Shown: positions 36,747 through 46,349 of the stretch, piece by piece
Layout of the letters: the number at the start of each line of letters is the position of its first letter
Numbering within the stretch: position 1 is the stretch's first letter
Assembly: GCF_025979705.1 (NCBI RefSeq)
Contig: NZ_CP110136.1
Coordinates: forward strand, 3,782,001-3,846,000
Reading direction: 5' to 3'
Source: Hymenobacter sp. YIM 151858-1
Lineage (GTDB): Bacteria; Bacteroidota; Bacteroidia; Cytophagales; Hymenobacteraceae
DNA length: 64,000 nucleotides
The notes under the pieces: model-generated
What the model was told of the DNA's origin: nothing
Seen by the model: the letters and a program-made list of their open reading frames with translations, nothing else
The model's database searches: none
Translations under genes and position numbers: made by a program

Positions 36747-39614
36747 TTAGCGGATTACGGTGGCGTCGAACGTCAGCGACACGTAGTACAGCGCCCCGAT
36801 GGTAGGGCCTGCGGCGTATTGGATATAGCGGTTGTTCAGCATGTTGGTGCCGCCGAGCTTCACGGTAGCCTTGAGGTTCGGAATGCGGGCATTCACCTGC
36901 GCATCCACGGTGTGGTAAGCGGGTATCTGGCCGTTGGCCAGCTGGCTTTCCCAGTAGAAGGAGTCCTGCCAGCGCCACACCACGTTGAAGCCCACATTGC
37001 GCACCACCTCGCGGTTGCCGAACGTGAGGTTGGTTACCCACTTGGGCGTGTTGAAGCCCGTGATGAAGATGTCCTTCGCGGTGTTGGCCCGAATGGCGTT
37101 GTAGTTGGCGTTGGCTGAGAGCGTGTACTTCTGGAAGAAGTTGTAGGTGAGGCCCAGCGCCGAGCCGTAGCTGCGGTAGCGGTTGCGGGCGTTGGTGTAC
37201 ACGCGGTAGCGGTCTTGGTTGGCGCGGGTGAGCATGTCCAGCACCGCTGCATCTGTCGTCACCGGGCCCGATTTTGGCACCGCTACCTCTACCTGACCTA
37301 AGAAACCCTTGTACACGTTGTAGTACGCGTCGAGGTCGAGGGCCAGTTTGTTGTCGAGCAGCACGCTTTTGTAGCCTACCTCAACGGCATCGATGTGCTC
37401 GGGCTGCATGGTGGGCAGGTTGGCTACCTGCAGCACGTCGCGGTTTTTTAGGGCGGCGGCGTTGCGGCTCATGCCCGCGGCCACGTCGCTGTTCACGGCG
37501 GCCGTAAAGTTGTCGAGCGAGGTGAGGGTGTAGGAGTTTTCGAGGTAGCCGAGTCCTTGGTTCACGCGGGGCAAGCCACCCACGCGGCGCACGTTGCCGT
37601 TGTTGACAAACGAAAACGCCTCAAATAAGGCCGGGAAGCGCCAGCCATTCTGGTAAGAGGCGCGCACGTTGTGGTGCTCACCCAGGGTATACACAGCCGC
37701 GGCCCGCGGGTTGAGCTTGGGGCTGAACTCGGGGTTGTAGTCGATACGCAAAGAGCCCACCAGCTTCAGGCGGTCATTGAACAACAGCTTCGTGGCCTGC
37801 CCAAAGGCGCCGTACTTGCGGTAGTACTGGTTATTGCCGCCCGGCGTGGAGCGCTCCTGCAGCGGTTTCGAGAAATCGACGAAGTTGTTGCCGTCGGGGA
37901 TTACCTCGTACACGCGGGCGTCGCCGCCCAGCACCAGGTCTACCCACTGCACGCGCTGGCCTACGTTCCACTGCGCATCGGCGTGGTAGGTGCGGCTGCG
38001 CTGCCACAGGGCCGCACCGCCGGTGGCCGGGGCGCCCGGCACGTTCACGGCAATGTCCCATTTGTTGATGCCCGTGATGGTGTTTTTCAGCTGCTCGAAG
38101 GCGGTAGTGCCCGGCTCGGCGCGGCCGGCATCGGCTACGGCGCGGGCGCGCTGCATGGCGGTAGCCAGGTCGGTACCGTTGTTTACCTGGGTTTGCAGCT
38201 CGTTGCGGAAGCGTGTGCCCCACACCGCATTCGAGCCGTTGTTCAGGTCGAGGTTGGTGGCCAGCGGGTTCAGGTTATACGAGTCGCCGGTGTTCTCAAT
38301 GAGCGTGTAAGCCCGGGCGTAGAAGGAAGGGCTGCGCAGCTCCAGCTTGTGGTTCTGCACGGTCACGTTCTTCAGCTGAATCTTGTTGCCGCGCTGAAAA
38401 ATGCCGTCCATCAGCCCGAAACGGTAGCCGTAGCTGGCTTCTAGCTTGTCGGTGAGCTTGTAGTGCAGGCTGCCGTCTACCTTCAGGTTGCGCACCGTGG
38501 GGTTGATGAGGTCGCGCTCGTAGTAGCCGGTGCGGCGCACGTTGAATGTTTCGGTGCGGCCGTTCAGCGTAATCGGCACCGATACGTTGCCGCTGCGGTC
38601 GTCGCCGTAGCGGTTCCAGAGGTCGGCGGCGGGGTTGTTCGGGCCCGAAAGCTCCGGAAAGCGCGGGTTGGCCGAATTCAGATTTTGCGGATTCTGGTCG
38701 ATTTGAGTATCCGACAGCCAGTCGGTGCCCTGCATGTAGGAGCCGTTCACCTTGTAGGCCCAGCGTTGGTTGGGGCCGAGCACCTGCGCCCAGCGCACCG
38801 CCGATTCGGTGAGCAGGCTAGGGGAGTAGTCGCGGCCGTCCACGTGGTTCACGCCCAACTTCTGGTACACGCTCAGGCCCTGGTAGGTGAAGGGACTTTT
38901 GGTGGTGAGGTTGGCCATGCCGTTGATGGCATTCATGCCGTACAGCGCCGAGGCCGCGCCGGGCGTAATTTCCACCGAGGCCACGTCCAGCTCCGTCGGG
39001 CCGATGGCGTTACCTAGGGGCACGCCCAGGGTGGCGGCCTGCATATCTACCCCGTCCACCAGCTGCATAAAGCGGAAGTTGTTCGGGATGTTGAAGCCGC
39101 GCGTGTTCGGCACCTTGAACGTGAGGCTCGAAGTGGTCATCTGCACGCCCTTCACGTTCTCCAGGGCGTCGTAGAAGCTCGGCGCTGGCGTTTCCTTGAT
39201 GGCCCGGATGTCGAGCTTCTCAATAGCTACCGGCGACTTCAGCCGGCTTTCCTCCACCCGCGAGGCCGATACCACCACTTCATTGGTGAGCAGCGCCTTC
39301 GACTCCAGTCCAATCGAAATAGGCGTGGCCGCATTCACAATTTCAACCTCCTTGGCCTCGTAGCCCAGCATGTTGAATACGAGGGTGAACGGAAACTTCA
39401 GCTTGGCCTTGAGCGCAAACTGCCCGTTGGCATCGGTAAGCGTGCCCGTGGTGCCGCCTTTGATGCTGACACTCACGCCCGGCAGCGGCTGCTGCATGCT
39501 GGTTTCGAGCACCGAGCCTTTGATGGCAATAATTTCGTCCTGCGCCGTGGCCGTGGTGGCGGTAGCCAGCAGTACGGCCACGGGTAACCAGGATGACGCG
39601 TAAGTCTTCTTCAT
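36747..39614 (-). CDS. TonB-dependent outer membrane receptor
   Basis: A 955-residue receptor: signal peptide (to about residue 24, TATAQ), a carboxypeptidase-like regulatory domain (about 30-105, VSIKGGTTGTLTDANGQFAL), a TonB plug (about 115-235, VEITPGAASALYGMNAINGM) and a large barrel. The start ATG at 39614 is flanked by the cysJ 3' end. Its place inside the sulfate-assimilation operon suggests that its ligand is a sulfur source too large or scarce for porins, or a cofactor of the pathway; the sequence does not identify it. No SusD partner is present. TonB/ExbBD for it may be those at 17.7-21.7 kb. Confidence 0.92.
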   Translation of the reverse strand: MKKTYASSWLPVAVLLATATTATAQDEIIAIKGSVLETSMQQPLPGVSVSIKGGTTGTLTDANGQFALKAKLKFPFTLVFNMLGYEAKEVEIVNAATPISIGLESKALLTNEVVVSASRVEESRLKSPVAIEKLDIRAIKETPAPSFYDALENVKGVQMTTSSLTFKVPNTRGFNIPNNFRFMQLVDGVDMQAATLGVPLGNAIGPTELDVASVEITPGAASALYGMNAINGMANLTTKSPFTYQGLSVYQKLGVNHVDGRDYSPSLLTESAVRWAQVLGPNQRWAYKVNGSYMQGTDWLSDTQIDQNPQNLNSANPRFPELSGPNNPAADLWNRYGDDRSGNVSVPITLNGRTETFNVRRTGYYERDLINPTVRNLKVDGSLHYKLTDKLEASYGYRFGLMDGIFQRGNKIQLKNVTVQNHKLELRSPSFYARAYTLIENTGDSYNLNPLATNLDLNNGSNAVWGTRFRNELQTQVNNGTDLATAMQRARAVADAGRAEPGTTAFEQLKNTITGINKWDIAVNVPGAPATGGAALWQRSRTYHADAQWNVGQRVQWVDLVLGGDARVYEVIPDGNNFVDFSKPLQERSTPGGNNQYYRKYGAFGQATKLLFNDRLKLVGSLRIDYNPEFSPKLNPRAAAVYTLGEHHNVRASYQNGWRFPALFEAFSFVNNGNVRRVGGLPRVNQGLGYLENSYTLTSLDNFTAAVNSDVAAGMSRNAAALKNRDVLQVANLPTMQPEHIDAVEVGYKSVLLDNKLALDLDAYYNVYKGFLGQVEVAVPKSGPVTTDAAVLDMLTRANQDRYRVYTNARNRYRSYGSALGLTYNFFQKYTLSANANYNAIRANTAKDIFITGFNTPKWVTNLTFGNREVVRNVGFNVVWRWQDSFYWESQLANGQIPAYHTVDAQVNARIPNLKATVKLGGTNMLNNRYIQYAAGPTIGALYYVSLTFDATVIR

Positions 39615-39707: not shown

Positions 39708-41516
39708 TTAGTACACGTCCTCGAGGTAGCGGCGCTGCTTTTTGAGGTTGCGCACGTAAGCCTCGGCTTCTTCGAGGGTAGCGCCGCCCTCCATTTGCAC
39801 CACGCTCACCAGCGCTTTGTGCACGGTAGCGGCCAGGCGCTGCTTATCGCCGCACACGTAGAAGTGGGCACCGTTTTCAAGCCAGTCGTAGACGTCGCGG
39901 GCGTATTCCAGGAGTCGGTTGTGCACGTAGATCTTTTCTTTTTGGTCGCGCGAAAACGCGACGTTGAGCTTGGACAGGGTACCGCGCTTGAGGTGCTGCT
40001 GCCACTCCGTTTGGTACAGGAAATCGGTAGTGAAATGCGGGTTGCCGAACACCAGCCAATTGCGGCCGTCGGCCCCTAGCTCGGCGCGCTCCTCCACGAA
40101 AGCCCGGAACGGCGCCACGCCCGTGCCCGCGCCTACCATGATGATATCGGTGCTTGGGTTTTGGGGCAGTTTGAAGTACTCGTTGCGCTCCACAAACACC
40201 CGCACGTCGTCGCCGATGCTGATGCGGTCGGCCAGGTAGCAGGAGCAGGCGCCTTGCTTTTGGCGGCCGTGGGCCTCGTAGCGCACGGCGCCCACCGTGA
40301 GGTGCACCTCGTCGGGGTGGGCCAGCAGGCTGGAAGAAATGGAGTAGGCGCGGGCCGGCAGCGGGCGCAGCGTGTCTACCAACTGCTGGGCCGATAGCTC
40401 CACCGGGTAGTCGACCAGCAAATCCGCGGCGTCGCGGCCGTAGAGGTAGGTTTGCAGGCGGTCGGTGGCGGTAGTCAGCTCGTGCAAGGCCGCTTGGGGC
40501 TGATGCTGGGCGTAGCGCTCCAGCACATCGCGCGAGAGGGTAGCCAGCTCCAGCCGTTCGGTAAGGGCTGTGGCCAACGGCAGCGTTTCGCCTTTCAGCT
40601 GCACCGGCGCATCGGCTTCGAGCTGGGTAGCGCGCAACACTTCCTCCACCAGCGCCGCCGAGTTCGTGGGCACTACCGATAGCGCATCGCCGGGCGCGTA
40701 CTGCAGGCCTGAGTCGGCCAACGACAGCTCCAGGTGGTAGGTCTCCTTCGCCGAGCCGCGGCCGTTTAGCTGAATCTTCTCCAGCACCGAAGCCGTGAGC
40801 GGGTTCTGCCGCGAGTACTCCACCGCGGCCGCAGCCGGCGCTTCGGCCTTCACGCTGGCAGCGGCCGGAGCCGTGGCGCCACCTAGGGCAGGTAGCACGC
40901 TGGCAATCCACTGCTCGGCCTCGGCGTGGTACTCCACGTCGCAGTCTACCCGCGGCACAATGCGCTGGGCACCTAGGGCAGCCAGCCGATCGTCGAACTC
41001 CTTGCCCGTTTGGCAAAACTGCAGGTAGCTTCGGTCGCCTAGGGCCAGCACAGCGTAGCGCAGCTCGGGCAGCTTGGCGGCGCGGGCGCTGGCCAAAAAC
41101 TGGTGCAACTCCTCGGCGGCAACGGGCGGCTCGCCTTCGCCTTGGGTGCTCACCACTACCAGCACCACCTGCTCGCCTTTCAGCTCGCGCGGCTGGTAGT
41201 CGTTCATGTCGCGGGCGGTGGCATTGAGGCCGCGCTGCTTGGCGGCTTCTACGGCTTGCAACGCTACCTTCTTGCTGTTGCCGGTCTGCGAGCCGAAGAG
41301 CACCGTGATGCGCGGCCCCGCTTCGGGCGCGGCTTCGGCCGGAGCGGTAGCGGGTGCCGGAGCAAGCTGCGAGCCACCGTTGGCTGCGGCGTAGCGGCCG
41401 TAGAAGTAGCCGCTCAGCCACAGCAGCTGCCGCTCCGTGAGGTTGCCGGCAAGTTGCTGAAGCGTAGTATCATCGAAGCCGATGGGCAAACGCGGATCGG
41501 TGCTGGGCGTTGGCAT
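39708..41516 (-). CDS. cysJ: Sulfite reductase flavoprotein
   Basis: A 602-residue diflavin reductase passing electrons from NADPH via FAD and FMN to CysI. The N-terminal flavodoxin domain (about residues 60-205) has LFGSQTGNSKKVALQAVE; the FAD domain has RAYSISSSLLAHPDEVHLTV; NADPH-binding is shown by GAGTGVAPFRAFVEERAE and the C-terminal VYVCGDK-like loop (FYVCGDKQRLA). It ends in DVY, as expected for aromatic C-termini in the family. The ATG at 41516 (MPTPSTDPRLPIGF) is favoured over an upstream one that lies in an inverted repeat region. Confidence 0.94.
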   Translation of the reverse strand: MPTPSTDPRLPIGFDDTTLQQLAGNLTERQLLWLSGYFYGRYAAANGGSQLAPAPATAPAEAAPEAGPRITVLFGSQTGNSKKVALQAVEAAKQRGLNATARDMNDYQPRELKGEQVVLVVVSTQGEGEPPVAAEELHQFLASARAAKLPELRYAVLALGDRSYLQFCQTGKEFDDRLAALGAQRIVPRVDCDVEYHAEAEQWIASVLPALGGATAPAAASVKAEAPAAAAVEYSRQNPLTASVLEKIQLNGRGSAKETYHLELSLADSGLQYAPGDALSVVPTNSAALVEEVLRATQLEADAPVQLKGETLPLATALTERLELATLSRDVLERYAQHQPQAALHELTTATDRLQTYLYGRDAADLLVDYPVELSAQQLVDTLRPLPARAYSISSSLLAHPDEVHLTVGAVRYEAHGRQKQGACSCYLADRISIGDDVRVFVERNEYFKLPQNPSTDIIMVGAGTGVAPFRAFVEERAELGADGRNWLVFGNPHFTTDFLYQTEWQQHLKRGTLSKLNVAFSRDQKEKIYVHNRLLEYARDVYDWLENGAHFYVCGDKQRLAATVHKALVSVVQMEGGATLEEAEAYVRNLKKQRRYLEDVY

Positions 41517-41556
41517 AGCCAGTGGGGTTGAGGCGGTGATGAATAAATCAGGGGAT

Positions 41557-41672
41557 GTGGCGCGGAGTGGCACTCCGCGGGCGGCCCACAGCCGCCATTC
41601 GGCAATGGCCGCGGCCGGCAGCCTACGTTACTTGGCGCCGGCGGCGCCACGCGGAGTACCACTCCGCGCCAC
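41557..41672. repeat. Inverted-repeat element, family C
   Basis: Arms GTGGCGCGGAGTGGCACTCC (41557 on) and the facing GCGGAGTACCACTCCGCGCCAC (ending 41672). Each arm is itself nearly palindromic (CGCGGAGTGgCACTCCGCG). The spacer is about 70 bp and also GC-rich. It lies 9 bp after the cobA stop, between co-directional genes of the cys operon. Single copy in this window. Confidence 0.85.
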
Positions 41673-41681
41673 GTGGTCGGA

Positions 41682-42470
41682 TCAGGCCACGGCCGCGTAA
41701 AGCGGGGCCAGTTCGGGCACCAAGTCGGCCGCTTGCGGCACCGAAGCCAGATTTACCACGTTGCCGATGACGATGACGGCCGGCGCGCCAATGCCAGCCG
41801 CCGCCACGCGGGCCGGCAGCTCCGCCACCGTGGTGCTAATCATGCGGGCCGTGGGCAGCGTGCCGTCTTGGATGACCGCAGCCGGACGGTGCGCCCCGCC
41901 GAAGCGGCAGAACACATCGGCAATGGCTTGCACCTGACCCAGGCCCATCAGGATGACGGCCGTGGTGCGCGGCGCCCGCGCCGCCTCGTAGATTTCCTCC
42001 GACAACTCGCCCCTGGCCGTCGTGGCCGTAATCACCCGAAACGACTCGCTCAGCCCCCGATGCGTTACCGGAATGCCTACGCTACCCGCCGCCGCTACCG
42101 CGCTGCTGATGCCCGGCACGTAATCGGTCTGCAGACCGTGGCGCTGGGCATACAGCATTTCCTCGCGGCCGCGGCCAAACACGAACGGGTCGCCGCCCTT
42201 TAGCCGCACCACGTGGCCGTGCACCCGGGCGTAGAGCACAATCAGGTCGTTTATCTCCTGCTGCAGGTAGCCGCGCAGGCCTTTGCGCTTGCCCACGTAC
42301 ACCTTCTTGGCATCGGGGCGGGCGTGGGAGAGCAGCTTGGCATTGCTGAGGGCATCGTAGAGCACGACATCGGCCTCAGCCAAAACCCGGGCACCCTTGA
42401 GCGTAATCAGCTCTGGGTCGCCGGGACCGGCACCTACCACGGTCAGGCGTGGAACAACGAAAGCGGGCAT
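41682..42470 (-). CDS. cobA: Uroporphyrinogen-III C-methyltransferase
   Basis: A 262-residue SAM-dependent methyltransferase making precorrin-2 from uroporphyrinogen III, the first step to siroheme. Signature motifs are VGAGPGDPELITLKG at the N-terminus and VRLKGGDPFVFGRG; GISSAVAAAGSVGIPVTHRG and MGLGQVQAIADV are also typical. It supplies the CysG N-domain encoded at the end of the operon, so both halves of a normal CysG are present but on separate polypeptides. The name sumT is equally used. Confidence 0.94.
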   Translation of the reverse strand: MPAFVVPRLTVVGAGPGDPELITLKGARVLAEADVVLYDALSNAKLLSHARPDAKKVYVGKRKGLRGYLQQEINDLIVLYARVHGHVVRLKGGDPFVFGRGREEMLYAQRHGLQTDYVPGISSAVAAAGSVGIPVTHRGLSESFRVITATTARGELSEEIYEAARAPRTTAVILMGLGQVQAIADVFCRFGGAHRPAAVIQDGTLPTARMISTTVAELPARVAAAGIGAPAVIVIGNVVNLASVPQAADLVPELAPLYAAVA

Positions 42471-42660: not shown

Positions 42661-43899
42661 TTACTCAATGAGGCCCGCGGCCAGGGTGGCGCCGGTTTGC
42701 TCGTCGAGCAGGATGAAGGCGCCAGTGGTGCGGTTCTGGCCGTAAGCATCGGCAGCCAGCGGCGCGGCCGTTTTCAGCCGGACGCGCACGATGTCGTTCA
42801 GCTTGGCTTCCTCGGTGTCTTCCTGGGCGAAGCTTTGGATGTTGGTTTTGCCCAGGATGGCTTGTACCACGGCTTTGGTTTTGGCAGCGTGGTGCTGCAC
42901 CAGCAGCTTGCGGCCGGCGCGTAGCGGGCGGTCTTCCATCCAGCACAGCGTAGCTTCCAGTTCGCGAGTAGGCTCGGGCGCTTGGTCGGCGGGCACAATG
43001 GCGTCGCCGCGGCTTACGTCCACGTCGTCGGCGAGGCGCAGCACCACACCTTGCGGCGCCACGGCTACCTCTACCTCTTGCTGATTTATTTCAATGGCTT
43101 CGAGCGTCGTCTCGATGCCGGCGGGCAGCACCACCACTTGTTGGCCGCGGCGGTACACCCCGCTCTGGATGCGGCCGGCATAGCCGCGGTAGTCGGGCAG
43201 CTCCGCGCTCTGCGGCCGGATGACGTACTGCACCTGAAAGCGAGCGGCTTCGTGCGTGGTATCAGGCGCTACCGCAACCGTCTCTAGGTACTCCAGCAGG
43301 TTCGGGCCTTTGTACCAGCCTAGGTTGGCCGACGCGCGCACCACGTTGTCGCCGTGCAGGGCGCTGATGGGGATGTTCACAACGTGCTTGATGCCCAGCT
43401 GCGCCGCCACGGCGGCGTAATCGGCCACGATGTCGCGGAACACGGCCTCGGAGTAGCCCACCAGGTCGATCTTGTTCACGGCCAGCACGAAGCGCTTGAT
43501 ACCAAGCAGGGCCGATACAATGGTGTGGCGGCGCGTTTGTTCCACCACGCCCTGGCGGGCATCCACCAGCACAATGGCCAAATCGGCGTTCGAAGCGCCC
43601 GTCACCATGTTGCGGGTGTACTGCACGTGGCCGGGCGTATCGGTGATGATAAACTTGCGGCGCGGCGTGGTGAAGTACTTGTGCGCCACGTCGATGGTAA
43701 TGCCTTGTTCGCGCTCGGCGCGCAGGCCATCGGTGAGCAGGGCCAGGTCAACAGTACCGGCGGCGGAAGTGCGGTTTTGCTCCTCCAGCGCAGCCAGCAC
43801 ATCGAGCGACACGGCGTCGCTGTCGTAGAGCAAGCGGCCAATCAGGGTGCTTTTGCCGTCGTCGACGCTGCCGCAGGTGATGAATCGAAGTAAGTCCAT
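42661..43899 (-). CDS. cysN: Sulfate adenylyltransferase subunit 1 (GTPase)
   Basis: A 412-residue EF-Tu-like GTPase that drives APS formation by CysD. G1 is GSVDDGKSTLIGRLLYD, G3 DTPGHVQYTRNM, G4 NKIDLVGYSE. Beta-barrel domains 2 and 3 follow (RIQSGVYRRGQQVVVLPAGI, KLLVQHHAAKTKAVVQAI). No APS-kinase (CysC) domain is fused at the C-terminus; 412 residues is the size of CysN alone. Family B and D elements flank it. Catalyses with CysD: ATP + sulfate to APS + PPi, coupled to GTP hydrolysis. Confidence 0.95.
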   Translation of the reverse strand: MDLLRFITCGSVDDGKSTLIGRLLYDSDAVSLDVLAALEEQNRTSAAGTVDLALLTDGLRAEREQGITIDVAHKYFTTPRRKFIITDTPGHVQYTRNMVTGASNADLAIVLVDARQGVVEQTRRHTIVSALLGIKRFVLAVNKIDLVGYSEAVFRDIVADYAAVAAQLGIKHVVNIPISALHGDNVVRASANLGWYKGPNLLEYLETVAVAPDTTHEAARFQVQYVIRPQSAELPDYRGYAGRIQSGVYRRGQQVVVLPAGIETTLEAIEINQQEVEVAVAPQGVVLRLADDVDVSRGDAIVPADQAPEPTRELEATLCWMEDRPLRAGRKLLVQHHAAKTKAVVQAILGKTNIQSFAQEDTEEAKLNDIVRVRLKTAAPLAADAYGQNRTTGAFILLDEQTGATLAAGLIE

Positions 43900-44000: not shown

Positions 44001-44915
44001 TTAGAAATAGCCGTTGCGCTTGCGGTCCTCCATGCCGGTTTCCGAAATCCGGTCGTCGAGGCGGGTAGCGCCCCGCTCGCTCACTTTGGCCTGCAGAATG
44101 TCTTCGATAATGGCCGCAAGGGTGCTGGCGTCGCTTTCCACGGCGGCGGTGCAGGTAGCATCGCCCACGGTGCGGAAGCGTACCTGGCGGGTAGTCAGCT
44201 CGTCGGAGGCATCGAGTGAGAGGTGCTCCGTTACGGCCAGCAGCTGGCCCGAGGGCAGCACCACGCAGCGGCGCTCGTGGGCGAAGTAGATGCTAGGCAG
44301 CTGGATGTTCTCGCGCTGGATGTAGTTCCACACGTCCAGCTCGGTCCAGTTCGAAATGGGAAACACGCGCACGTTTTCGCCGGGCTGAATCTGGCCGTTG
44401 TAGATATTCCAGAGCTCGGGGCGCTGGCGGCGCGGGTCCCACTGGCCGAACTCGTCGCGCACCGAGAAGATACGCTCCTTGGCGCGGGCCTTTTCCTCGT
44501 CGCGGCGGGCGCCGCCGATGCAGGCATCAAAGCCAAACTCCTCGATGGTATCCAGTAGCGTGTAAGTCTGCAGGGCGTTGCGGCTCGGAAACTTGCCGCC
44601 CGGCTCGCGCAGGCCGCGCTGCTGAATGGTGTCCTCCACGCGGCGCACAATCAGCTGCTCGCCTAGTTCGGCAGCCAGTGAGTCGCGAAACTCCAGTACT
44701 TCCGGGAAGTTGTGGCCCGTGTCGATGTGCACGAGCGGGAACGGAAACTTGCCAGGCCGGAAGGCCTTTTGGGCAAGGCGCACCAGCGCGATGGAGTCTT
44801 TGCCGCCCGAGAACAGCAGCGCGGGGCGCTGAAACTGCCCGGCCACTTCGCGCAGGATGTGGATGGCTTCGGCTTCGAGCCGATCGAGGTAGTCTAAACG
44901 AGGGAGCGTTGGCAT
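44001..44915 (-). CDS. cysD: Sulfate adenylyltransferase subunit 2
   Basis: A 304-residue ATP pyrophosphatase of the PAPS-reductase/CysD fold that adenylates sulfate to APS with CysN. The PP-loop LFSGGKDSIALVRLAQKAF is near residue 35, followed by FPFPLVHIDTGHNFPEVLEF and the C-terminal RFRTVGDATCTAAVES. Length is normal. In this operon it is second after cysH; the junction holds a family B repeat. Confidence 0.95.
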   Translation of the reverse strand: MPTLPRLDYLDRLEAEAIHILREVAGQFQRPALLFSGGKDSIALVRLAQKAFRPGKFPFPLVHIDTGHNFPEVLEFRDSLAAELGEQLIVRRVEDTIQQRGLREPGGKFPSRNALQTYTLLDTIEEFGFDACIGGARRDEEKARAKERIFSVRDEFGQWDPRRQRPELWNIYNGQIQPGENVRVFPISNWTELDVWNYIQRENIQLPSIYFAHERRCVVLPSGQLLAVTEHLSLDASDELTTRQVRFRTVGDATCTAAVESDASTLAAIIEDILQAKVSERGATRLDDRISETGMEDRKRNGYF

Positions 44916-44985: not shown

Positions 44986-45183
44986 GCCTCACCCCCCGGC
45001 CCCCTCTCCGGGGGAGAGGGGGAGCCTGATGTCAGCAGGCATTATCCGGAGCATGAAGTAGAAAGAGCAGGGTAGCGCATTACTGGCACAGATGTATGCC
45101 GCCAGCAATTAAGTAGTAAGCACAGCGACGTTGCTGCCAATTGGCTCCCCCTCTCCCCCGGAGAGGGGGCCGGGGGGTGAGGC
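44986..45183. repeat. Inverted-repeat element, family B, copy 2
   Basis: A 198-bp element with arms of about 40 bp (GCCTCACCCCCCGGCCCCCT at the left, GGGGTGAGGC at the right) matching copy 1 at 42481-42658; the spacer sequence differs. Its right arm runs into the 3' end of cysH and supplies the last codons of that gene. Confidence 0.9.
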
Positions 45184-45888
45184 GTGCAGGCCGCACTCCT
45201 TCGCCGACTGATCTTCCCACCACCAGCGGCCGGCCCGGAAGTCTTCGCCGGGCTTCACGGCCCGGGTGCACGGCGCGCAGCCAATGCTCACGAAGCCTTG
45301 CAGGTGCAGGGGGTTATGCGGAATGCTGTACTCGCGGATAAAGGCCCAGGTCTGCTCCCAGGTCCAGTCGAGCAGCGGATTCACCTTCAGCAGCTGGTAG
45401 GTAGCATCGAACTCGGCTATCTGCATGCCGGTGCGGGTGGCCGATTGCTCGGCCCGAATGCCCGTAACCCAGGCTTCTTTGCCGGCCAGCGCACGGCTCA
45501 GCGGCTCCACTTTGCGCACGTTGCAGCAGGCCTTGCGGGCATCCACGCTTTCGTAGAAACCATTCGGGCCCTGGCGCTCTACCAGGGCGGCTACCTGCTC
45601 GTGGTTGGGGTAGTAGGTCCGGATGGTTTTGCCGTATTTGAGCACGGTTTTGCTCCAGGTAGCATACGTTTCCTGAAAATTACGACCTGTGTCGAGGGTA
45701 AATACCTCAATGGGTAAATCGTGGGCAAAAATCAGGTGCGCGATTACCTGATCTTCCAATCCAAAAGAGGTAGAAAAAGCGGCTTTACCGGTAAATTCAG
45801 TGGCAATTAGGCGCAGGGTATCCAACGCATCAGCCCCAATTAATTGCTGACGAATTTGCGCCACCTGTGCATCGATTAAAGTCGACAT
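45109..45888 (-). CDS. cysH: Phosphoadenylyl/adenylyl-sulfate reductase
   Basis: A 259-residue reductase producing sulfite. The iron-sulfur motif is complete: Cys121-Cys122 in KACCNVRKVEPL and Cys204/Cys207 in SIGCAPCTRA, the pattern of enzymes that reduce APS directly. The active-site Cys232 is in KECGLH. In relatives ECGLH is at or very near the C-terminus, but here the frame continues for 24 residues (ASPPGPLSGGEGEP then IGSNVAVLTT) encoded largely by the right arm of a family B repeat. First structural gene of the operon; no cysC is present to make PAPS, which also favours APS as substrate. Confidence 0.93.
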   Translation of the reverse strand: MSTLIDAQVAQIRQQLIGADALDTLRLIATEFTGKAAFSTSFGLEDQVIAHLIFAHDLPIEVFTLDTGRNFQETYATWSKTVLKYGKTIRTYYPNHEQVAALVERQGPNGFYESVDARKACCNVRKVEPLSRALAGKEAWVTGIRAEQSATRTGMQIAEFDATYQLLKVNPLLDWTWEQTWAFIREYSIPHNPLHLQGFVSIGCAPCTRAVKPGEDFRAGRWWWEDQSAKECGLHASPPGPLSGGEGEPIGSNVAVLTT

Positions 45889-46196
45889 GCGCAGCAGGGC
45901 TACGACCGGTTTCTCCGAAGAAAAACCAGGTCTGATAAGACAAAAAGAAAGGGAGCCGGAGGGGTAGGCGGCGAGTTGAGCTCAAGCGGCCAAACCAAAC
46001 GGACCTAGGGCGTGCTCCTGCGGTAGGAGCCTAGGCGTTGGCGTTCCGGCAAGCGGGCAGGGGAGGATGTAAAAGCCTCAACAACACGCGCGGCGCATAG
46101 CCAGGCAACAACAGCACAGGCTGTTGGAGCCGAAAAGGCCCGGCTGCAGAGCAGCGGAGGTAGCGCGGGGTGTGATGATGAGGTTCACGGCGTACG
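45889..46196 (-). promoter_or_regulatory. Long leader between riboswitch and cysH
   Basis: About 300 nt of untranslated leader. It contains the Cys-run short frame (46078-46188), a hairpin GCTCCTACCGCAGGAGC on the minus strand (46014-46030), and further downstream GCTCCC followed by a T-rich stretch (TTTCTTTTTG, 45941-45950). The 3' half of the first hairpin (AGGAGC) could instead pair with GCTCC(C), giving alternative structures of attenuator type. This pairing is a hypothesis. Confidence 0.45.
46078..46188 (-). CDS. Putative cysteine-rich leader peptide
   Basis: A 36-residue frame starting GTG just after the SAM riboswitch and ending 189 bp before cysH. It reads MNLIITPRATSAALQPGLFG and on to SNSLCCCCLAMRRACC, with six cysteines in the last 12 residues, including four in a row. 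Runs of the codon for the end product are the hallmark of ribosome-mediated attenuation, and cysteine is the product of this pathway. Polycysteine short frames acting as cysteine-responsive attenuators are known in mycobacteria. Here the start codon and translation are inferred. It could be chance, but the position is telling. Confidence 0.55.
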   Translation of the reverse strand: MNLIITPRATSAALQPGLFGSNSLCCCCLAMRRACC

Positions 46197-46295
46197 TTGT
46201 TTTTATATGGTCAGGAATTGGCACCGTTCCGGATGATCCGGAGGGTTGCCGGCGCTTCACGGAGCCTGTCTCTCCACGCCTCTGTATAAAAACAA
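46197..46295 (-). ncRNA. SAM-I (S-box) riboswitch
   Basis: Read on the minus strand, the 99-nt element has P1 arms TTGTTTTTATA / TATAAAAACAA (perfect 11 bp), the conserved core AGAGGCGTGGAGAGACAGGC, CTCCGTGAAGCGCCGGCAAC, a P3 stem TCCGGA-TCA-TCCGGA, and GGTGCCAATTCCTGACC before the 3' arm of P1. These are the invariant blocks of SAM-I riboswitches. It stands between the promoter and the cysH start, so SAM abundance should repress the whole sulfate-assimilation operon. The expression platform is not obvious; the leader peptide may form part of it. Confidence 0.95.
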
Positions 46296-46316
46296 TCCTG
46301 GGAAGAATTGATGGAG

Positions 46317-46349
46317 CAAAGGTAGCAACACAAATTTTGGAATTGCAAA
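46317..46349 (-). promoter_or_regulatory. Promoter of the cys operon
   Basis: On the minus strand TTTG, 21 bases, TACCTTTG: a full match to the Bacteroidota promoter. Transcription would start roughly 10 bp before P1 of the riboswitch, which fits. Confidence 0.75.

Follow-up and report, generated by a model that had tools for sequence, protein, structure and literature searches.

The sulfate-assimilation operon of Hymenobacter sp. YIM 151858-1 is preceded by a leader in which a SAM-I riboswitch is followed, within a few nucleotides, by a short upstream open reading frame (uORF) that ends in clustered cysteine codons. We consider it fairly likely that the two form a composite leader, in which a tRNA-Cys-sensing peptide is gated by SAM, and that this leader serves a sulfur regulon of the Bacteroidota. 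The case is comparative only: translation of the uORF, ribosome stalling, SAM binding and the regulatory output are all inferred. The window, as we call the whole stretch of DNA that was analyzed, comprises 64,000 nucleotides of this genome, and the elements at the head of the operon are placed in it as follows.

46317-46349, minus strand: predicted Bacteroidota-type promoter of the TAnnTTTG type, TTTG, 21 nt, TACCTTTG (read from the sequence)
46197-46295, minus strand: SAM-I riboswitch aptamer (RF00162), core 46292-46200, extended P1 arms fully complementary
46078-46188, minus strand: putative leader peptide uORF, GTG start, 36 codons, VNLIITPRATSAALQPGLFGSNSLCCCCLAMRRACC followed by a stop (from the sequence and genus orthologs)
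46105-46116, minus strand: four consecutive Cys codons (TGC TGT TGT TGC), the proposed control codons
46081-46086, minus strand: two terminal Cys codons (TGT TGT), adjoining the TGA stop at 46080-46078

The only Rfam match in the whole window is to the SAM family, RF00162, at 46292-46200 on the minus strand (76.5 bits; the gathering score is 44.4). The match covers model positions 1-108, a complete aptamer, and its P1 helix can be extended to 11 perfect pairs between TTGTTTTTATA (46295-46285) and TATAAAAACAA (46207-46197), which brings the element to exactly the ends, 46197 and 46295, given in the original prediction made from the sequence alone. By the covariance model this is an ordinary SAM-I aptamer, its binding of SAM being inferred, and it stands where such an aptamer should stand, ahead of sulfur-metabolism genes (cysH-cysD-cysN-SUMT-cysJ). 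A promoter had also been predicted just ahead of the riboswitch, and a promoter-like element is indeed present there; its assignment as the promoter of this leader is inferred. The TACCTTTG motif is unchanged across seven aligned leaders of the genus, and a TAnnTTTG consensus is given for Bacteroidota promoters in the available part of PMC9723704. A scan for sigma-70 promoters, which does not cover promoters of the Bacteroidota type, found none. Transcription would be expected to start near 46312, a site that is inferred without measurement.

The GTG of the uORF lies 8 nt beyond the extended P1, and the frame, whose C-terminal end is CCCCLAMRRACC before the stop, contains six Cys codons within its final 12 codons, four of them in a row and the last two adjoining the TGA. 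The sequence thus agrees exactly with the frame originally described just past P1; the use of GTG as its start codon is an inference, as is translation itself. Since the putative uORF start at 46188 would lie approximately 124 nt past the predicted transcription start near 46312, the arrangement argues against a leaderless uORF start, without settling the matter, the transcription start being inferred. The frame precedes the following genes.

45109-45888, minus strand: cysH, phosphoadenylyl-sulfate/adenylyl-sulfate reductase (NF002537, 263.8 bits, and TIGR02055, 246.8 bits, both above cut-off), the first gene past the leader
44001-44915, minus strand: cysD, sulfate adenylyltransferase small subunit (TIGR02039, 413.0 bits, above cut-off)
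42661-43899, minus strand: cysN, sulfate adenylyltransferase large subunit (TIGR02034, 533.9 bits, above cut-off)
41682-42470, minus strand: uroporphyrinogen-III C-methyltransferase, siroheme synthesis (TIGR01469, 256.1 bits, above cut-off)
39708-41573, minus strand: cysJ, sulfite reductase flavoprotein subunit (TIGR01931, 741.9 bits, above cut-off)

Co-transcription of cysD, cysN, the uroporphyrinogen-III C-methyltransferase gene and cysJ with the leader is inferred. Beyond cysJ lie a TonB-type receptor gene, cysI and a gene with a siroheme-synthase N-terminal domain. The TonB-dependent receptor gene occupies window positions 36747-39614, between cysJ and cysI, and its nearest model is SusC/RagA, below cut-off; placed in a sulfate-assimilation run, it may encode an importer of a sulfur source.

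When the leaders of related genomes are compared, the window peptide has a clear ortholog in seven of the eight genomes of its genus, in all seven between SAM-I and cysH; in the eighth, no cysH match reaches E <= 1e-30. Among named relatives, Solirubrum puertoriconensis (Cytophagales) is the closest, its CysH being 96% identical. A profile of the peptide, searched against 200 family genomes, gave strong matches in the seven genus genomes only, with weak matches elsewhere, because the peptide diverges outside its Cys codons. Upstream regions of cysH, including those taken from 100 further family genomes, were searched for the riboswitch with a covariance model (R1) built from the genus, a simple motif regex being too strict. 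This search placed SAM-I ahead of cysH in 127 of 161 loci, namely 26 of 27 named loci from Hymenobacter or Solirubrum, 101 of 123 from other family genomes and none of the 11 other named loci that were given to it; one named Hymenobacter genome (L098) has no SAM-I ahead of cysH. The remaining 42 of the 53 other named cysH loci were not included in the covariance search, and a short SAM-I motif occurs in two of the 53 (L139, L142). Cys frames were found up to 600 nt upstream of cysH in 15 of these 53 loci; all lacked an ATG, and they were judged to be chance occurrences.

Nearly all of the 127 SAM-I elements are followed by a Cys-rich frame, of which MQTYNITSATRMASSGTATASVAFVPTSALLQQNCCCCCCMC (L257) and VNRLSNSAAASATPRALQHGCCAMLGMACCCQA (L101), each closed by a stop, are examples. 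Under a strict test, with a start codon 4-32 nt past P1 and at least three Cys, two of them adjacent, among the last 15 codons, the frame is present in 80 of 101 family genomes and in 21 of 26 named genomes, where dinucleotide shuffles lead one to expect 1.9 and 0.46, respectively. A relaxed test, with the start 4-16 nt past P1 and at least four Cys including CC, was applied to the 127 leaders and the window together and found the frame in 123 of the 128 (2.9 expected from dinucleotide shuffles). Homologous leaders that kept the riboswitch and lost the frame would have refuted the original prediction, and this is not what the count returns. Three of the five failures have three Cys (L097, L191, L198), and two have a broken frame (L248, L249). 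The latter two, from genomes G129 and G131, are near-identical and keep the Cys-rich stretch, but out of frame with the usual start; they are natural candidates for broken cysteine control. None of these counts represents independent trials, because the named genomes partly coincide with the others and the sequences share ancestry.

The arrangement is not confined to cysH. The window genome has five SAM-I sites. A Cys-run uORF follows four of them, ahead of cysH, of an amino-acid permease, of an OAH/OAS sulfhydrylase scoring 581.6 bits against TIGR01326 and of a RimK-like ATP-grasp protein; the fifth, at metH, has none. The further SAM-I elements with a Cys-run uORF lie at C1:1637095-1637187 (L002), C1:2678922-2679031 (L004) and C1:657438-657536 (L005), and precede, in that order, the amino-acid permease, the O-acetylhomoserine sulfhydrylase (OAHS) and the RimK-like ATP-grasp gene, the last of unknown role in sulfur metabolism. 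Across the genus, with 31 of 35 matches read, the Cys frame is present at 23 of 23 non-metH SAM-I sites and at none of eight metH sites.

At greater distance, SAM-I was detected both in the order (112 of 148 genomes) and in the class (178 of 247). We read 118 order and class loci, which are the best-scoring matches together with a hand-picked part and not all matches, with gene labels assigned by sequence motif; L305, which has a Cys uORF, and L317 were excluded because they are family members. The frame is present in 21 of the 31 OAHS leaders with SAM-I (0.20 expected) and absent from the other 10, and it is found in 0 of 54 metH leaders, 0 of 7 cystathionine-gamma-synthase-like leaders, 1 of 8 MetX-like leaders and 4 of the 18 that remain, including one before a nitrite/sulfite-reductase-domain gene (L371) and one before a transporter of the Na+/H+-antiporter family (L356). 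A separate search for OAHS gave a match in 39 of 198 class genomes. Of 30 OAHS loci from this search, 20 had SAM-I; among the 27 whose start could be located, 20 had a Cys-tailed frame, families outside the order included. This last count has no shuffle control, three loci have no located start, and the frame of L418 has no ATG. The arrangement is regulon-wide and gene-specific, which goes beyond what was originally claimed.

Relatives also swap the two modules, with the Cys uORF alone, SAM-I alone at metH, or mixed Met/Cys runs without SAM-I. Among SAM-less cysH leaders of the family, 13 of 22, all from the g6 genomes (L262, L263, L266, L269, L271-L276, L280, L282, L290), have a uORF of the type MVYSSHIKRMRFCCCSSCCCCC and stop, the stop lying approximately 90-105 nt before the cysH match. 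Rfam gave no match in the seven SAM-less Cys-uORF cysH leaders that were scanned, nor in seven OAHS loci without SAM-I. Four SAM-less OAHS leaders of the class Bacteroidia (L426, L427, L433, L436) have mixed Met/Cys runs, for example MHRMHHCMCMCCMCM, HMMCCCCK and HMMCMCCCMAPPC; in these the Met codons may take the place of the SAM sensor, a suggestion that rests on four loci only. Since the Cys uORF occurs without SAM-I, and SAM-I occurs alone at metH, each module can stand alone.

This separability is what speaks for two independent sensors in tandem, the rival explanation that survives best: the aptamer would act on elongation, mRNA decay or the main gene, and the uORF would act separately and additively, with no gating between them. 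What independent modules would not need is a start codon held 8-10 nt from P1, yet this spacing is found in 76 of 80 cysH and 18 of 21 OAHS strict matches; moreover, the window leader has no terminator to serve the aptamer. We therefore regard independent sensors as unlikely, while keeping them in play. The fixed spacing suggests, as far as distance alone can, a link between uORF and riboswitch. Because the start lies 8-10 nt past P1, with the P1 3' strand in the region that a ribosome would occupy, it is suggested that SAM closes the uORF. A uORF controlled by a riboswitch should have its initiation region within reach of the closing helix, and conserved there, and the leaders meet this expectation.

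The composition of the peptide bears on what is being conserved. In the cysH set, 32.5% of the 15 C-terminal residues are Cys, compared with 6.3% elsewhere in the peptide, and outside the Cys clusters the peptide diverges across the family. The product could instead be a functional Cys-rich peptide, nascent or mature, that senses a metal, a thiol or redox state and not tRNA charging. Within the window's genus this could be argued, as the peptide end is conserved beyond Cys and the last six codons and the stop are nucleotide-identical in six of seven leaders. Across the family, however, mainly the Cys clusters are kept, while their spacing, the length (30-67 codons) and the remaining residues vary, from CCCCCC to GCCGMMCCPCC, and the named targets are mostly sulfur-assimilation genes; we find a functional peptide improbable on these grounds.

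That the Cys codons would be read as codons is suggested by their frame. For this test the uORF was picked solely by a start codon 7-12 nt past P1, ignoring Cys; such a start is present in 119 of 128 cysH leaders, which yield 96 distinct peptides. Every TGY-TGY-TGY tract is in frame 0 with the start codon, 97 of 97 in the cysH set and 25 of 25 in the OAHS set, so the free frameshifting that would equally have counted against the original prediction does not occur. Together with the 123 of 128 leaders that keep the frame, this is what one looks for in an amino-acid-sensing leader peptide, where codons for the product of the pathway stand in a run and in a conserved frame. The synonymous-substitution check that had been proposed came out less clearly. 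In eight genus sequences, the four-Cys tract has three columns that are Cys throughout, with TGC and TGT exchanged at two of these, and the terminal TGT TGT is kept in all eight; TGC and TGT are both present at two of the five all-Cys columns. This part of the check is favorable, but over the whole uORF dN is only moderately below dS: it is lower in 26 of 28 genus pairs, not strongly, and higher in the other two, and between the window and L086 (dN 0.242, dS 0.550) the ratio is only moderately below 1.

It could also be that the TGT/TGC repeats act as RNA, through pairing of GUU repeats or protein binding, and that the frame is incidental. Support for this comes from the SAM-less g6 leaders, in which the last part of the Cys run is paired with bases just past the stop and compensatory changes are seen: 94.5% of cells are paired and four are double-changed, neither of which is reached in any of 500 shuffles, although two double-changed pairs are reached in 58 of 500 and five further pair types in 294 of 500. 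In these leaders the last Cys codon has changed to Phe or Leu together with its pairing partner. The strict frame of all 97 and all 25 tracts is not explained by repeats acting as RNA, non-run clusters such as CCGMMCCPCC are retained, and the pairing is not general; the probability that we would assign to it is very small. Finally, a chance Cys-rich frame in a GC-rich leader, which has the shortness of the frame and nothing else in its favor, is already refuted by the 123 of 128 leaders against 2.9 expected and by the repeated presence of such a frame ahead of four types of gene within a single genus, at 23 of 23 non-metH sites read.

In the remainder of the leader, between the uORF and cysH, three features were recorded.

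45889-46077, minus strand: untranslated leader from the uORF stop to cysH, C-rich and G-poor, a candidate Rho-loading region
46004-46035, minus strand: leader hairpin CCTAGG...CCTAGG (from alignments of seven genus leaders; function unknown)
45906-45929, minus strand: hairpin 17 nt upstream of the cysH start codon (differs in sequence between species; function unknown)

A classical terminator platform, the kind of structure that the original prediction had left as inferred, was looked for in the window leader and in relatives and was not found. The intrinsic terminator scan of the window leader returned none, and terminator-like sites in relatives show no clear enrichment over shuffles (25 of 103 leaders where shuffles give 25.1, 4 of 22 where they give 2.4, and 2 of 21 where they give 0.8). 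Classical terminator/antiterminator attenuation was thus rejected as the general output, and the leader was not classed as a trpL-type attenuator because that class calls for an intrinsic terminator with an antiterminator. The window leader (45889-46077) has C 0.370, G 0.233, T 0.270 and A 0.127, and a rho gene is present in the genome. Given a leader that is C-rich and G-poor and has no intrinsic-terminator match, Rho termination is favored as the output but unproven. C-richness is weak evidence for Rho: C/G past the uORF is 0.362/0.246 in own-genus and Hymenobacter-type cysH leaders, 0.230/0.120 in OAHS leaders and 0.235/0.187 in g3/g6 cysH leaders, where the bias is small; the 44 metH leaders (0.17/0.17) come from other taxa and are an imperfect control; and there is no genome-wide background or rut test.

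Nor does folding point to a common switch. Consensus folding of the post-uORF leaders gave hairpins that differ between clades, and no structure past the uORF common to all clades was found. The hairpin at 46004-46035 is swapped in related species for other arms at the same place, e.g. CTAAGCG...CGCTTAG. A hairpin over the Cys tail and stop was considered as the general output and rejected, as it is strong in the SAM-less g6 leaders only (mean z -2.42, with no control window); elsewhere z is -0.12 in Hymenobacter, -0.64 in the genus, -0.86 in OAHS leaders, and -0.74 in g3/g6 leaders with SAM-I against -0.86 for their control window. The end of the uORF, ATGCGCCGCGCG (46100-46078), and CTGCGCATG at the cysH start (45896-45885) share a 6-nt complement (AUGCGC/GCGCAU); CTGCGCATG is kept in the genus, and the final uORF codons hardly vary, third positions included. 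Direct contact between the two is possible from the sequence and is not shown to be the best pairing: none of seven leaders had the uORF tail as the segment pairing best with the cysH start, and in two the best segment overlapped the tail.

In the mycobacterial polycysteine attenuators, a downstream start is sequestered and is freed by stalling. That such short ORFs exist in mycobacteria, as the original prediction stated, has precedent in Seliverstov et al. (2005, PMC1262725), the available part of which predicts polycysteine uORFs in Actinobacteria/mycobacteria, reports no conserved terminator hairpin in mycobacterial cys leaders and suggests Rho. Canestrari et al. (2020, doi 10.1111/mmi.14498) describe polycysteine uORFs as leaderless in their title, and PMC13236596 characterizes that work as translation attenuation. 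As far as these partial sources go, the Hymenobacter leader resembles the mycobacterial ones in placing a Cys run near the stop of a short ORF ahead of a cys operon, but unlike the leaderless uORF it lies approximately 124 nt into the predicted transcript, after a SAM-I aptamer and in another phylum. The uORFC-8-2 motif of Rhodobacterales cysS has tandem Cys codons and a proposed response to uncharged tRNA-Cys (PMC8632094); it differs in its pair of Cys codons, in its intrinsic terminator, which has a U run, in that no riboswitch is mentioned in the portion available, and in belonging to alphaproteobacterial cysS and not to sulfur assimilation. The window leader has the Cys codons and no terminator match and so does not qualify as a member.

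Joint action of a riboswitch and a translated uORF is described in M. tuberculosis, according to the accessible parts of the reports on B12/ppe2 (PMC11260477) and Mbox/pe20 (PMC12810186), the latter involving Rho-dependent termination. Those uORFs are not described, in what is available, as amino-acid sensors, whereas the Hymenobacter uORF is proposed to be a second metabolic input. The enterobacterial mgtA leader combines a riboswitch-like element with a proline-sensitive short ORF, the proline-rich mgtL. It responds to Mg2+ and proline, at one gene and with a different architecture, whereas the Hymenobacter leaders would respond, throughout a regulon, to two end products of a single pathway. 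Both mgtA and consecutive proline codons are mentioned in PMC6460261. Known SAM-I platforms are transcription attenuators or sequester the ribosome-binding site in P1 (PMC2258182, in part); unlike these, P1 here would occlude the leader peptide and not the main gene. Leader-peptide attenuation or leader-like short frames in Bacteroidota receive general mention in the accessible text of PMC9723704 and PMC7366714. Among the papers listed in searches of open-access literature, none described a SAM-I element paired with a cysteine leader peptide, subscription papers being mostly outside the search. On this basis we rate the parts as known and the composite as new.

The mechanism that we propose for the composite leader is as follows. 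When SAM is plentiful, the aptamer would close P1, whose 3' strand, 8 nt before the GTG, would fall inside the ribosome footprint and block initiation at the uORF. When SAM is low, P1 would open and the uORF would be translated. With plentiful Cys-tRNA, the ribosome would then pass the Cys codons and leave, and the leader would stay off; with scarce Cys-tRNA, it would stall on these codons and hold the downstream leader on. The operon would thus be expressed only when SAM and cysteine are both short. The most likely output would be premature Rho termination in the C-rich, G-poor stretch, which a stalled ribosome would prevent; that the output is structural or translational, without Rho, is not excluded. 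Extended to the whole regulon, this becomes an AND-gate in which SAM-I licenses the peptide and the Cys codons decide for the cysH operon, OAHS and sulfite reductase, so that both products must be low; on this wider claim our judgement is evenly balanced. The gene distribution fits such two-input logic, by inference: the genes for inorganic sulfur (cysH operon, OAHS, sulfite reductase) would be off once either product suffices, and metH, which recycles homocysteine, would need the SAM input alone. The permease and the ATP-grasp gene remain unexplained.

The dual-sensing interpretation of the original prediction is supported by this comparison, with translation, stalling, SAM binding and the switched step inferred. 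Because the same pair stands before sulfur-uptake genes in many relatives, these bacteria probably sense the two end products of the pathway through a single mRNA. Riboswitches and leader-peptide attenuators are usually seen as separate metabolite sensors, and here they are apparently joined at a near-fixed spacing, ahead of sulfur-entry genes in a large bacterial group. If this is true, nature would have built a gate with two inputs into one RNA, which would account for a SAM-I leader without a terminator of its own and would allow the sulfur regulon of these bacteria to be predicted from sequence. A group of very small genes, open to ordinary reporter tests, is brought to light as well.
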